NCBI GenBank assembly: GCA_902802265.1 | Contig: CADCLN010000022.1 | Span: forward strand, 18,509 to 82,508 | Direction: 5' to 3' | Length of the DNA: 64,000 bases | Origin: an uncultured Bacteroidales bacterium | Lineage (GTDB): Bacteria > Bacteroidota > Bacteroidia > Bacteroidales > Bacteroidaceae | Shown here: positions 17,332-38,355 of the stretch, one piece after another | How positions within the stretch are numbered: position 1 is the first letter of the stretch | Layout of the letters: each line of letters opens with the position of its first letter | The notes under the pieces: generated by a model | What the model was told of the DNA's origin: nothing | Databases searched by the model: none | What the model saw: only the letters and a program-made list of their open reading frames with translations | Made by a program: the position numbers and the translations under genes

Positions 17332-17400
17332 CTTATGAGAAGAAGAATAATAATATACAGATTATCAATCAATAAATCAGTTTTATTAAATTTTTAGGTG

Positions 17401-17433
17401 CTGTGACAGGCCTGTGACAGGTCTGTGACAGGC
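17401..17433. repeat. Three tandem 11-bp CTGTGACAGGY units
   Basis: Three consecutive units, CTGTGACAGGC, CTGTGACAGGT and CTGTGACAGGC. Each holds the palindrome CTGT-GACAG-like core. They are followed by CAGTGCC and GGCACTG inverted pieces. Confidence 0.8.
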
Positions 17434-17580
17434 TCCCCACCCTGGTGGCACTGCAGTGCCAGACGAGTGGCACAGTTCTCCCACGGCGGTAGCAATGCAG
17501 TGCCACTGGTGTGACACAGTTCTCCCGCTGGGAAAAGGTATAACTTCTTTCTAAAAATGCAATATTTTTCTCTTGATTAT

Positions 17581-35358: not shown

Positions 35359-36186
35359 TTAGTGCTTTAATTTATAGACCAGTCCGAATGTGCCATAAAG
35401 CGGATGAAGTCCCATGGTGACGGGGTTGCCTTCACTGTCGTTGAACGCGCTGTTCAGTCCGTAGCTGAGGTCGGCAAACGCTCCCCATTTCTTGGCAAAG
35501 GTCCAGTCCACGCCCAGGTCTAAGCCCCACTGGAAGCGGCGCATATATCCGTTGAAGCTGTCACCGCTGAAGTAGCCGCGTGTCGTCTCGTCGTTTCCCA
35601 CATACACCAGGTCTCCGCGCACTTCGCCACGGCGCAGATAGGCGGTTGACTTCCCATCGGGTCCCGTCTCTCCGTAAGCATAACCGTAGAAGGAACGGCC
35701 TGTCAGCAGCGAGAGATAGATGCCCGCCTTGGCCTTCAGCGCAGCGGTAGGCTGCCAGATAGCCTGTATGGGCAACGTGAAACCCGTCTGCCGGACGTTG
35801 ATGACCACATTGCCCGTGTAGGGGCCTGTGATTTCCTCCACGCCTTGACGCAGGATGACGTCGAATTGGCGCAGGGTTACGTCGCTCTTGAAGCCCTTCT
35901 GTTCAAAATACAGCCCAGCCTGCACGCCCCAATGTTCGTTCCACCGATAGACAGCGTCGGCTCCCACTCGGTAGTTGAACTTAGGCGAATACGAATTGAG
36001 TCCACGCACAGCCGCAGGGAAACCCATTGGCAATGTGCCGCCGACACTGTATCCGGCCCTGAGTTCATAGTCAAACTGCTGTCCGTTGGCACAGAGGGCG
36101 CAGAGGAAGCAGAGGGCACAGAGGTAGCGGCGAATACGGCTGTTGGTCCGTGCGGAACGGTATGTTGTTCTTTCCTTTTTCATCAT
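35359..36186 (-). CDS. Outer-membrane beta-barrel protein (PorT/OmpW-like size)
   Basis: The 275-residue protein has a basic N-terminus, a Cys-rich signal peptide core (RRYLCALCFLCALCANGQ) and a body of alternating aromatic and polar strands. It ends GTFGLVYKLKH, consistent with an 8-12 stranded outer-membrane barrel. Its start codon overlaps the stop of the PCMD lipoprotein gene (ATGA at 36183-36186). The signal peptide is encoded by a copy of the CACAGAGGGCACAGAGG repeat found in two other genes here. It may provide the membrane part of a complex with the flanking lipoproteins. Confidence 0.75.
   Translation of the reverse strand: MMKKERTTYRSARTNSRIRRYLCALCFLCALCANGQQFDYELRAGYSVGGTLPMGFPAAVRGLNSYSPKFNYRVGADAVYRWNEHWGVQAGLYFEQKGFKSDVTLRQFDVILRQGVEEITGPYTGNVVINVRQTGFTLPIQAIWQPTAALKAKAGIYLSLLTGRSFYGYAYGETGPDGKSTAYLRRGEVRGDLVYVGNDETTRGYFSGDSFNGYMRRFQWGLDLGVDWTFAKKWGAFADLSYGLNSAFNDSEGNPVTMGLHPLYGTFGLVYKLKH
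36088..36124. repeat. GGCACAGAGG repeat forming a signal-peptide core (copy 1)
   Basis: Tandem variants of GGCACAGAGG, read on the minus strand as Leu-Cys-Ala-Leu-Cys. Copies 2 and 3 are at 44663-44703 and 45919-45957. Confidence 0.75.
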
Positions 36187-37433
36187 TCATTCACAATTTT
36201 AAAGTTATCCACCAGCAATGTGCTGCCCAGCGCACCGGAATAGGTTGCACCGTCCTTGCTGGACGAGCAGACCACAGCGAAATTGTAGCCATGGCGCTCC
36301 AGCACCGCAGGGTCAATCTCTTCGGTCCAAACAAAGGGCAGGTCGAACTTCACCCAGCCGTTCAGACCGACTTGCCAATTCTTCACTTCAGCCTTTCCCA
36401 CAGCCAGCGGACTGTCTTCCACGTCGTCGCCATGCAACACAACCGACCGTCCCTGTGCATCGTGGTTTTTATACACCACACAGTAGATGGCAGGTTGGTC
36501 CGTGCCTGGGATGTTCTCGCCGTTCTGGTCGGTCATCTGCACACCAGGCTCAAACTGGTAATAGCCTGTAAAGCGCACAGGTTTGCGTCCCAAAATGCTG
36601 TTGTCGCCAAAGCGAGTAGCCTGCAGCGTATTGGTCAGGGCCACGCTGAAGTCAAACGTGCCGATAAACAGATTGCCTGCTGCCAGCGGCATCTTGAACA
36701 GTTCGCCAAACTCGCCTGTGCTGCAAGTGGTCAGCCGCACGTATGCGCCGCCATCCACACCGCCTTTGGCTACAGGCACAGTGGGGTACTCTTCGGGTGT
36801 GGCACTGCCGCGAGCCGTACTGAAGCCCTTGTTGGCTGTGGCCCAGTTCGGCACGGTGCGCATTTCACCGTTCCACGGGTCGCTCCATTCGTAGAATTTC
36901 CGAGCTTGCGCTTCTAAATAATAGTGCTCAAAGTCGTAGCTGATGACGTCGCTCATGTCCACCAGATTCTCGCTGAACTTCACCTGATAGGGTCGCACAT
37001 GTCTGCCCGCCTTGGCATACTGAGCCAGCTGCTGCATATAAGCCACGGTCGCCTCGGGCGTAGTGGGGTATTGCACCAGTTCCTGCTCATCCTCGGCAAT
37101 GACAAAATACAGTTGCGCCTGTTCGTTGGAGAAGTCGCGCAGCGTTCCCTGTGGAGGAAACAGCGTGGCACCCTTCGAGATGGTGAAAGTGGGTGTGAGC
37201 CGCGACAAGTCTGCCGTGGGTCTTACGCCCTGAAACACAATGATGCTCTGTCCGAAGTCGTCCAACAGCGGAGCCGCCGTGTCGTTCAGCAGAAAGAAAT
37301 AGTCTTCGGGGTGGGGCAGGTGTACCACAGCCCTTCTGATGTCACACTCCTGGTTCGGAGCCTGATCTTTTATACAAGAAGCAATGCCTAGTCCGCAGAA
37401 AGCCAGACTGAGCACCAGTCGAAAAGTTTTCAA
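36183..37433 (-). CDS. PCMD-like surface lipoprotein
   Basis: The 416-residue protein has a lipoprotein signal (MKTFRLVLSLAFCGLGIASC, Cys20), a beta-sandwich-like N-terminal part (about residues 30-120) and a large C-terminal domain (about 165-416) that resembles PCMD. Signs are ARKFYEWSDPWNGEMRTVPNW, an exact repeat of the NPW-type aromatic patches, and LVDNFKIVNE at the end. It is the first gene of the minus-strand group and has a good promoter at 37481-37512. It is probably exposed on the outer membrane. A carbohydrate-related role is inferred from the family only. Confidence 0.72.
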   Translation of the reverse strand: MKTFRLVLSLAFCGLGIASCIKDQAPNQECDIRRAVVHLPHPEDYFFLLNDTAAPLLDDFGQSIIVFQGVRPTADLSRLTPTFTISKGATLFPPQGTLRDFSNEQAQLYFVIAEDEQELVQYPTTPEATVAYMQQLAQYAKAGRHVRPYQVKFSENLVDMSDVISYDFEHYYLEAQARKFYEWSDPWNGEMRTVPNWATANKGFSTARGSATPEEYPTVPVAKGGVDGGAYVRLTTCSTGEFGELFKMPLAAGNLFIGTFDFSVALTNTLQATRFGDNSILGRKPVRFTGYYQFEPGVQMTDQNGENIPGTDQPAIYCVVYKNHDAQGRSVVLHGDDVEDSPLAVGKAEVKNWQVGLNGWVKFDLPFVWTEEIDPAVLERHGYNFAVVCSSSKDGATYSGALGSTLLVDNFKIVNE

Positions 37434-37480
37434 ACGAATGTCTTGTTGAATCTATAAAGTTATGTTACTAAAACAGGATG

Positions 37481-37512
37481 CAAAGTTAAAAAGTTTGTCA
37501 GACATACGCAAA
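37481..37512 (-). promoter_or_regulatory. Promoter for the PCMD lipoprotein operon
   Basis: On the minus strand TTTG (37509-37512), a 20-bp spacer and TAACTTTG (37481-37488) match the Bacteroidetes consensus fully. The leader is about 45 nt. Confidence 0.7.
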
Positions 37513-37594
37513 CAATCCCGCTAAAAACTGCAAATTTTTTACAAATTCTATAGAAAAGATTTACCATTTCAGCGGAAAACGATGCTCATAGAAT

Positions 37595-37703
37595 TGGTAA
37601 GGTTTTACCATCGAAGTGGTAATGTTTTACCGTAGAAGTGGTAAAGTTTTACCAATGCAGTGGTAAAGTTTTACCACAACGATGGTAATTTTTTGGTAAA
37701 ATT
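37595..37703. repeat. 22-bp tandem repeats with TGGTAAA-N2-TTTACCA palindromes
   Basis: Four consecutive 22-bp units (37595, 37617, 37639, 37661) each hold TGGTAANGTTTTACCR, then a 6-bp spacer; units 3 and 4 are identical perfect palindromes. A decayed fifth copy runs from 37683 to the -33 element at 37703. The array lies between divergent promoters of the PCMD operon and the ECF sigma operon. The spacing equals two DNA turns, so each palindrome faces the same side. Confidence 0.88.
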
Positions 37704-37733
37704 TTGGCGTTTCTGTAATGATTCGTAATTTTG
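37703..37733 (+). promoter_or_regulatory. Promoter for the ECF sigma operon
   Basis: TTTG at 37703-37706, a 19-bp spacer and TAATTTTG at 37726-37733 match the Bacteroidetes consensus. The -33 touches the last repeat of the palindromic array. The leader is about 25 nt. Confidence 0.7.
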
Positions 37734-37764
37734 TGGCAATATATGAATAGAAACCCAGCGAGAA

Positions 37765-38355
37765 ATGGACGAAAGAACAAAGAACGATGTGCTATGCACC
37801 CTGGACGACGCGCGTCTGATTCAGCGCATACTGAAGGGGCAGACCGGTGCCTTCCGATACATTGTGCGGCGACACAGGGCTGCGATGGTCAGATTTGTGG
37901 GGCGAATGCTTCCCGACGGTGCAGACGTGGAGGACGTGGTGCAGGATGTGTTTGTGGAGGCATACCAAAGTCTGGCGAACTACTGTGCGGAGCGGGCTGC
38001 CTTCCCGACGTGGCTGAGCCGTGTGGCATACTACACCGTGCTGCACCACTTGCGGCGAAAGTCCGTGCCGATGACCTCGCTCGACGGTGACGAAAGCCTG
38101 CTCGACACGGTGAGCGACGAGGCGGCAGACAGCCTGTGGCAAACGGCTGGCGAGGCCGAAGTGGATGCGCTCGACCAGGTCCTTTCGATGCTCCGGCCCG
38201 AAGACCGTATGCTGGTACAGCTGTTTTACTACGACGGGAAGCCGCTCACAGAAATTGCCTATGTCCTGGACAGCAAGGCTGGCACGCTGGCCACGAGGCT
38301 TTGCCGCATCAGAAAGAAACTCTATGTCATATTGAAAACAATGGAAAGGAACTGA
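37765..38355 (+). CDS. ECF-type RNA polymerase sigma factor
   Basis: The 196-residue protein has region 2 (residues about 25-95: AFRYIVRRHRAAMVRFVGRM, then DVEDVVQDVFVEAYQSLANY) and region 4 (about 135-190: LRPEDRMLVQLFYYDGKPLT and a helix-turn-helix GTLATRLCRIRKKL). No region 3 is present, as in extracytoplasmic sigma factors. It is followed after 2 bp by an anti-sigma-like gene and then by a receptor with an STN domain, the FecI-FecR-FecA order. It is likely released when the receptor binds its ligand. Its own promoter looks like a housekeeping-type one. Confidence 0.93.
   Translation: MDERTKNDVLCTLDDARLIQRILKGQTGAFRYIVRRHRAAMVRFVGRMLPDGADVEDVVQDVFVEAYQSLANYCAERAAFPTWLSRVAYYTVLHHLRRKSVPMTSLDGDESLLDTVSDEAADSLWQTAGEAEVDALDQVLSMLRPEDRMLVQLFYYDGKPLTEIAYVLDSKAGTLATRLCRIRKKLYVILKTMERN

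Follow-up and report, generated by a model that had tools for sequence, protein, structure and literature searches.

The palindromic array studied here lies in a 64,000-nucleotide stretch of DNA from an uncultured Bacteroidales bacterium (the window) and is one of 16 arrays of the same unit scattered over the source genome. Arrays of the same geometry, built from other words, occur in other species of the genus; at most chromosomal positions compared between two near relatives the word is replaced, an array lies beside every gene seen for a protein of the DUF6078 family, and related proteins carry related words. The best explanation, to which we assign a probability of about 0.6, is that a putative sequence-specific DNA-binding DUF6078 protein and the scattered arrays form a two-part system of which the window array is one site, and that this system would work like RAYT proteins and REPINs, yet be unrelated to them.

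The window array consists of four units of the form TGGTAA[G/T/A/A]GTTTTACC[A/G] (written in full, TGGTAANGTTTTACC(A/G)) that stand in phase at a spacing of exactly 22 bp; together with a Tandem Repeats Finder score of 124, these units confirm the original prediction of four in-phase 22-bp units followed by a decayed copy (Table 1). The right-end form, TGGTAA-N5-TGGTAAAA, recurs exactly in 10 of the 16 arrays of the source genome as judged by reading. Three or more like palindromes in phase were found by our detector zero times in 1.0 Mb of block-shuffled sequence, so the window array is not a product of chance, and a 15-mer searched genome-wide with up to two mismatches gave 60+61 occurrences versus 12+8 for its reversed control. 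Both TTTG elements, at 37703 on the plus strand and at 37512 on the minus strand, which we take to mark Bacteroidetes-type promoters, are located where they had been placed. As predicted, the array runs up to the sigma promoter, ending one base before its -33 element. The operon contents proposed earlier also proved right by Pfam: PCMD, outer-membrane barrel and calycin-like proteins in the surface-protein operon, and ECF sigma factor, anti-sigma factor (FecR_C) and receptor (OMP_b-brl_3) in the sigma operon, with FecR_C at 23.1 bits falling slightly under the Pfam cut-off of 24.4.

Table 1. The window array, the predicted promoters on either side of it and the adjoining genes (window coordinates).
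Feature	Position	Strand	Details
Array core	37595..37676	+	four 16-bp palindromes TGGTAA-N4-TTACC(A/G) with 6-bp spacers; starts 37595, 37617, 37639, 37661
Decayed fifth unit, right end	37683..37701	+	TGGTAATTTTTTGGTA; direct half-sites TGGTAA-N5-TGGTAAAA
Decayed left outlier unit	37551..37566	+	TAGAAAAGATTTACCA; 3 mismatches
Predicted promoter of sigma operon	37703..37733	+	TTTG-N19-TAATTTTG; one base past array end
Predicted promoter of divergent surface-protein operon	37481..37512	-	TTTG-N20-TAACTTTG
ECF sigma factor gene, adjoins array	37765..38355	+	Pfam PF04542, PF08281
PCMD-domain gene, divergent neighbour	36183..37433	-	Pfam PF13201

Throughout the source genome assembly (G000; 2.88 Mb, 85.65% complete), the TGGTAA-N4-TTACCA unit forms 16 arrays. 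In an alignment of 61 units carrying no more than three mismatches each, position 7 is variable and position 10 is T in 57, so that the pair formed by positions 7 and 10 is often broken. The arrays are flanked by genes for GH88, PHP, HemN, histidine kinases, RlmH, PurL, PEPCK, DAHP and chorismate synthases, TamB, serine hydroxymethyltransferase (SHMT), peptidases, GH77, AraC, CN-hydrolase and the window sigma factor, among which we see no common theme (30 proteins scanned, three of them without a family). By reading, seven arrays lie between divergent, eight between tandem and one between convergent genes; these counts (6, 8 and 2 when uncorrected) follow correction of the open reading frame calls at two loci, where the left gene is DUF6078 (L010) or PCMD (L021), both on the minus strand. 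The TGGTAA family has a narrow range. Its pair pattern (up to three mismatches) was found in G000 and G014 alone among 45 genomes of the genus, and its word in 1 of 399 genomes of the family, namely G000 itself, G014 being absent from the sample drawn. Perfect TGGTAA units in G014 sit inside longer, older arrays and keep the same phase. The orthologue closest to the window sigma factor, 72% identical to it where others in the genus reach about 44% at best, is also in G014, where the promoter and start region are near-identical and there is no array. The sigma matches and their neighbours are identical on two contigs of G014, C81 and C106, which points to a duplicated assembly; its listed contamination is 7%.

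The same geometry recurs elsewhere in the genus: other species have arrays with about four palindromes at 22-23 bp and, in G000 and in TGTAGC units, spacers of 6-7 bp, made from words such as TGTAGC, TGTTAC, CGGAC and more. Upstream of the SHMT gene, for example, there is a TGGTAA array in G000 and a TGTAGC-N4-GCTACA array at 23 bp in G007, G043 and G031, and also in G041. Of 45 genomes of the genus, six contain the TGTAGC pair pattern; G043 has 31 such pairs on each strand, which read as 11 arrays, one of them cut by a contig end. A TGTNNCA pattern matched 5 of 248 genomes of the family, all from the same genus, and gave 54 pair matches per strand in G010, where among the matches listed the arms are TGTTAC or TGTAAC throughout.

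Word replacement is seen between G043 and G007, whose sequences around SHMT share 93% identity across 2.8 kb and 86% across the next 1.3 kb. Nine G043 array intervals besides that of SHMT were queried in G007, and seven were located (L138 and L146 were not found). All seven contain a 23-bp array in G007, and none contains the TGTAGC word, its place being taken by TGTTAC in five, by a CGGAC word in one and by a CAGACA-type word in one. At SHMT, TGTAGC is kept in both genomes, so that arrays are present in 8 of 8 compared intervals and the word differs in 7 of 8, an unusual degree of change between genomes so alike. In five of the seven G007 intervals both flanks, compared over up to 300 bp, align at 76-92%, and in one only a single flank aligns; one of the seven contains an extra open reading frame.

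Fewer array positions are shared with G000. In G014, 12 loci orthologous to G000 arrays divide into five with a 22-bp array of another word (L259, L258, L197, L251, L188) and seven without such an array, and at G000 array positions we found an array at 1 of 11 loci in G043 (L148), one clear and one doubtful array among 10 loci in G007 (L240, L235), 23-bp repeats, mostly non-palindromic, at 3 of 12 loci in G036, and none at 13 loci in G031 or at 12 loci in G041, the last searched with palindrome detectors only. Conversely, nine G000 loci orthologous to arrays of G043 or G036 comprise two with degenerate 22-bp arrays (L335, L337), one with a simple repeat (L336) and six with none, and six such loci in G010 comprise three with TGTTAC-type arrays, one with a degenerate repeat and two with none.

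The arrays are linked to a particular gene. In particular, a protein of about 150 residues encoded beside a G036 array, used as a segment of a chimeric query, gave matches adjoining known arrays in G043, G031, G010, G014 and G000, and Pfam places it in DUF6078 (PF19555); all 15 proteins scanned, six plus nine from outside the genus, score 85-166 bits against a gathering score of 27 bits. An array lies beside DUF6078 in all 22 genes seen, two cases being weak (L327 and L349). Within the genus there are 13 distinct DUF6078 genes, of which 12 have an array by periodicity and one, L327, has a degenerate one; eight of the 13 come from loci fetched for their arrays or for SHMT, and the linkage of those eight is therefore biased. 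The other five (L326-L330) were chosen by protein match, although the array at L326 was already known from the TGTNNCA pattern search. Outside the genus, tblastn found nine DUF6078 genes from Parabacteroides, Bacteroides, Treponema and gut contigs, of which four come from plasmid and five from phage records. In 9 of 9 the stop codon is followed, no more than about 70 bp away, by the start of a 22-bp-phased repeat; the L349 (Treponema) repeat is both short and weak, and the L354 repeat poorly palindromic. The array thus follows the stop codon in 12 of 22 genes (these nine and L328-L330 of the genus) and lies upstream of the gene in nine genes of the main group. At a fixed periodicity threshold, 12 of 14 DUF6078 genes obtained by protein search passed, versus 21 of 169 control open reading frames (Fisher p 1.2e-8), and at a stricter threshold 11 of 14 passed versus 13 of 169. 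The two misses at the first threshold were L327 (barely below 0.55) and L349 (0.52), and the 12% of controls that pass do so partly because some control loci had been chosen near arrays. In G000 a DUF6078 gene lies on contig C1 (L010:5425-5886, minus strand) with a TGGTAA array in front, and we infer that it is the cognate gene for the window array. A partial search of G007 located no cognate DUF6078 gene of TGTTAC or CGGAC type, and among viral contigs 20 stretches matched a DUF6078 pattern, none of which was confirmed.

A second host shows scattered copies as well. Arrays beside two DUF6078 genes of P. distasonis recur at 32 places in 11 records and at 12 places in 7 records, counts that include the gene-adjacent place, and all of these records are from Parabacteroides. 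Five recurring copies were opened, and all five are intergenic arrays of the right word in stretches without a DUF6078 gene; two are weakly periodic (0.53 and 0.56), and three lie between convergent genes. The opened records are labelled plasmids of strain TSDC17.2-1.1, yet carry pnp and pbpC, and so are probably pieces of chromosome.

Related DUF6078 proteins carry related words. With words extracted by script from regions set by hand, and all 22 genes included, the Mantel correlation is 0.65 (p 1e-4), and it is 0.45 (p 2e-4) for the 15 dissimilar genes below 55% identity. An earlier table of words drawn up by eye, which left out L349 and L354, gave weaker values of 0.59 (20 genes) and 0.32 (p 0.0075; 13 genes). 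A (C/G)AGTAC word, for instance, is common to DUF6078 proteins of G043 and Parabacteroides that are 44-46% identical. Among the aligned members of the genus, four cysteines and an NP pair are invariant, a pattern suggestive of a zinc site; proteins from outside the genus retain the four cysteines, while not all have the NP pair. We consider DUF6078 probably to be a zinc-containing DNA-binding protein. Read alongside the words, one variable stretch of the protein is NTQYYRIINGE (TGGTAA), NSAQLSRYRTG (TGTAGC), SRTQYGRYRSG (TGTTAC) or RNPYYERRRGE (CAGTAC). Foldseek with two DUF6078 models, which are poor in the N-terminal, cysteine-bearing half, returned no match below E 1 (best E 1.2), and a search of PDB sequences gave no match to DUF6078.

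Several known systems resemble this one in part. Two accounts of REP/REPIN sequences and RAYT transposase genes describe short palindromes that are scattered intergenically, species-specific and accompanied by a gene with its own repeat beside it (PMC3733652, PMC8049555), and DUF6078 arrays share all of these traits. Unlike REPs, however, they are in-phase arrays at 22-23 bp linked to DUF6078, the TGGTAA units read as having no unpaired GTAG or CGTC tag, and the GTAG of TGTAGC units falls inside the palindrome arm. Of 14 genomes scanned for a RAYT-type gene (IS200/IS605-type Y1_Tnp, PF01797), only three gave a score over cut-off, namely G000 with two matches, G031 and G002, and none of G014, G043, G036, G007 and G041 did so; the absence of PF01797 from most array-bearing genomes tested led us to reject RAYT-driven REPs. 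One good IS200-type Y1_Tnp gene is found in G000 (C23:37777-38118, E 3.4e-26). The BrickBuilt element of Porphyromonas gingivalis, a MITE, has 23-nt tandem units in 19 intergenic copies, and its consensus is the non-palindromic AGAYCATARTATCCTCTCRTRTG, repeated 1 to 22.8 times with a leader, a tail and IS5-type terminal inverted repeats (PMC4596501). The DUF6078 arrays are likewise intergenic, with units of 22-23 bp, the same bacterial order and a narrow species range, and their 16 copies in G000 agree with the roughly 20 intergenic copies per species taken as a mark of BrickBuilt; unlike it, they comprise about four palindromes and have no leader, tail or IS5-type ends. Since unit and ends differ from the published element, we reject identity with BrickBuilt. 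The spacers of 6-7 bp also set the arrays apart from CRISPR. CRISPR arrays have unique spacers of about 25-45 bp between repeats.

Viral and archaeal sequences gave isolated matches. In viral contigs there was no match to TTACCA-N6-TGGTAA-N4-TTACCA-N6-TGGTAA and none to the TGTAGCA pattern, a relaxed TGGTAA pattern matched two places on one phage contig (L060 and L061; IMGVR_UViG_3300012665_000376), and the TGTTACA pattern matched one other contig at irregular spacing. Because we judge these to be independent repeats, a phage decoy or phage origin was dropped. The tandem TGGTAA-N4-TTACCA repeats of the first contig include, by eye, one set inside a replication-like gene. In a Woesearchaeota genome (L058, about 432-471), a TTACCA/TGGTAA site cluster at 22 bp immediately precedes the start codon of an apparent HTH-nucleotidyltransferase gene; as a single site cluster before an HTH-type gene it was taken to be independent and set aside.

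The original prediction saw in the array a private operator that joins control of the PCMD and sigma operons. In favour of this is the location of the array, which is flanked by both promoters and meets the -33 of one. Its view of in-phase palindromes as a protein-binding array is still the best reading; what finds no support is the idea of a control region special to this operon pair, since the same array stands at 16 places in G000 beside unrelated genes, the recurrence at many unrelated loci that the prediction itself had named as refuting. The other such result it had named, relatives that keep both operons and lack the repeat, was found for the sigma side only, in the array-free orthologue of G014. 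Already largely refuted, private control is now scarcely tenable. Hardly more probable is a role as hairpins of RNA or single-stranded DNA, in which structure would count and not the word: the window array does fold into one long hairpin (-40.7 kcal/mol, z -5.95), but any palindrome array would do so, Rfam has no match within window positions 37000-38000, the 7/10 pair is often broken, and structure alone would not require words to be uniform over the scattered loci of a genome. A conventional MITE or minisatellite of the BrickBuilt kind, mobilized by the transposase of an insertion sequence and only incidentally linked to DUF6078, would account for the intergenic position, copy number, unit length and narrow range, yet the palindromic units and lack of BrickBuilt ends speak against it, as does a linkage that holds across families, and we regard it as very improbable.

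A better but still unlikely alternative is a conventional regulon: DUF6078 would be a transcription factor of the usual kind and the arrays its clustered operators, with words changing by co-evolution of factor and site. Like clusters of dimeric-repressor operators, the arrays consist of in-phase palindromes that could be bound co-operatively; 15 of the 16 in G000 lie between divergent or tandem genes, those of the main group stand upstream of the DUF6078 gene, and an array is kept between G043 and G007 at all seven located intervals and at SHMT. Against this, and unlike operator clusters, the arrays are scattered over 16 loci without a common theme among flanking genes, often follow the gene of the presumed binder and change word between near relatives; moreover, their distance from the promoter varies from abutting in the window to roughly 250-300 bp before that of SHMT (by reading), three of the five opened P. 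distasonis arrays lie between convergent genes, and G014 keeps the sigma promoter without an array. A pair resembling RAYT and REPIN is favoured over a regulon because of the intergenic spread, the placement after the stop codon in 12 of 22 genes and the change of word at fixed positions. Several findings tell against our own explanation: most G000 array positions are array-free in G043, G031 and G041, DUF6078 matches no known fold or PDB sequence, the search of G007 located no cognate gene, the word table drawn up by eye correlates more weakly, and 12% of control open reading frames pass the periodicity threshold.

If a DUF6078-array pair is the right explanation, the protein would read the six-letter word of arrays of about four palindromes at 22-23 bp. 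Each palindrome would most likely be the site of a DUF6078 dimer, and an array a co-operative platform on which dimers line up. Matching to the resident DUF6078 protein would drive the change of word, and array copies would spread or be rewritten within a genome, much as REPINs with RAYTs. The window array may influence the sigma promoter; any such effect, by occlusion or insulation, would be a by-product of the chance location of this copy. A bolder extension, which we put forward only tentatively, is that DUF6078 proteins are a new class of DNA readers whose specificity changes fast through a readable code, and that they drive both the spread and the in-place rewriting of their own arrays, in an intragenomic arms race in which rival genes overwrite words at fixed chromosomal positions.

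These results offer a testable function for a Pfam family that had none. They also describe a gene-plus-array system that is distinct from both REP/RAYT and known MITEs and that occurs in Bacteroidota of gut and rumen and in one Treponema. If DUF6078 does read the word, its naturally occurring protein-word pairs could serve directly as data for a DNA-recognition code and for asking why short repeat populations are kept in bacterial genomes. Array linkage is a new feature of DUF6078, a family without a described function in the literature searched. That search found no paper with the word DUF6078 and no title or abstract on such a system among reports of palindromic or tandem repeats in Prevotella, Bacteroidales, Bacteroidetes or Parabacteroides; it covered few subscription papers and is thus no proof of novelty.

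Other phased repeats occur in these genomes. Beside the SHMT array, at L072 and L088, there is a non-palindromic 23-bp repeat that begins GGAGGATATTCGTG and whose core resembles, by eye, the reverse complement of the BrickBuilt unit. Two further repeats of G000 are an array of six in-phase units with the word TGCCGC on contig C39 (L024:10335-10480) and a set of non-palindromic, in-phase 11-bp AACTTCCCTTT units on contig C21 (L336:253-360). The window itself holds a second array (17398-17533), degenerate, 22-bp-phased and of the TGGCAC/TCCCAC type, which opens with three 11-bp CTGTGACAGGC units.
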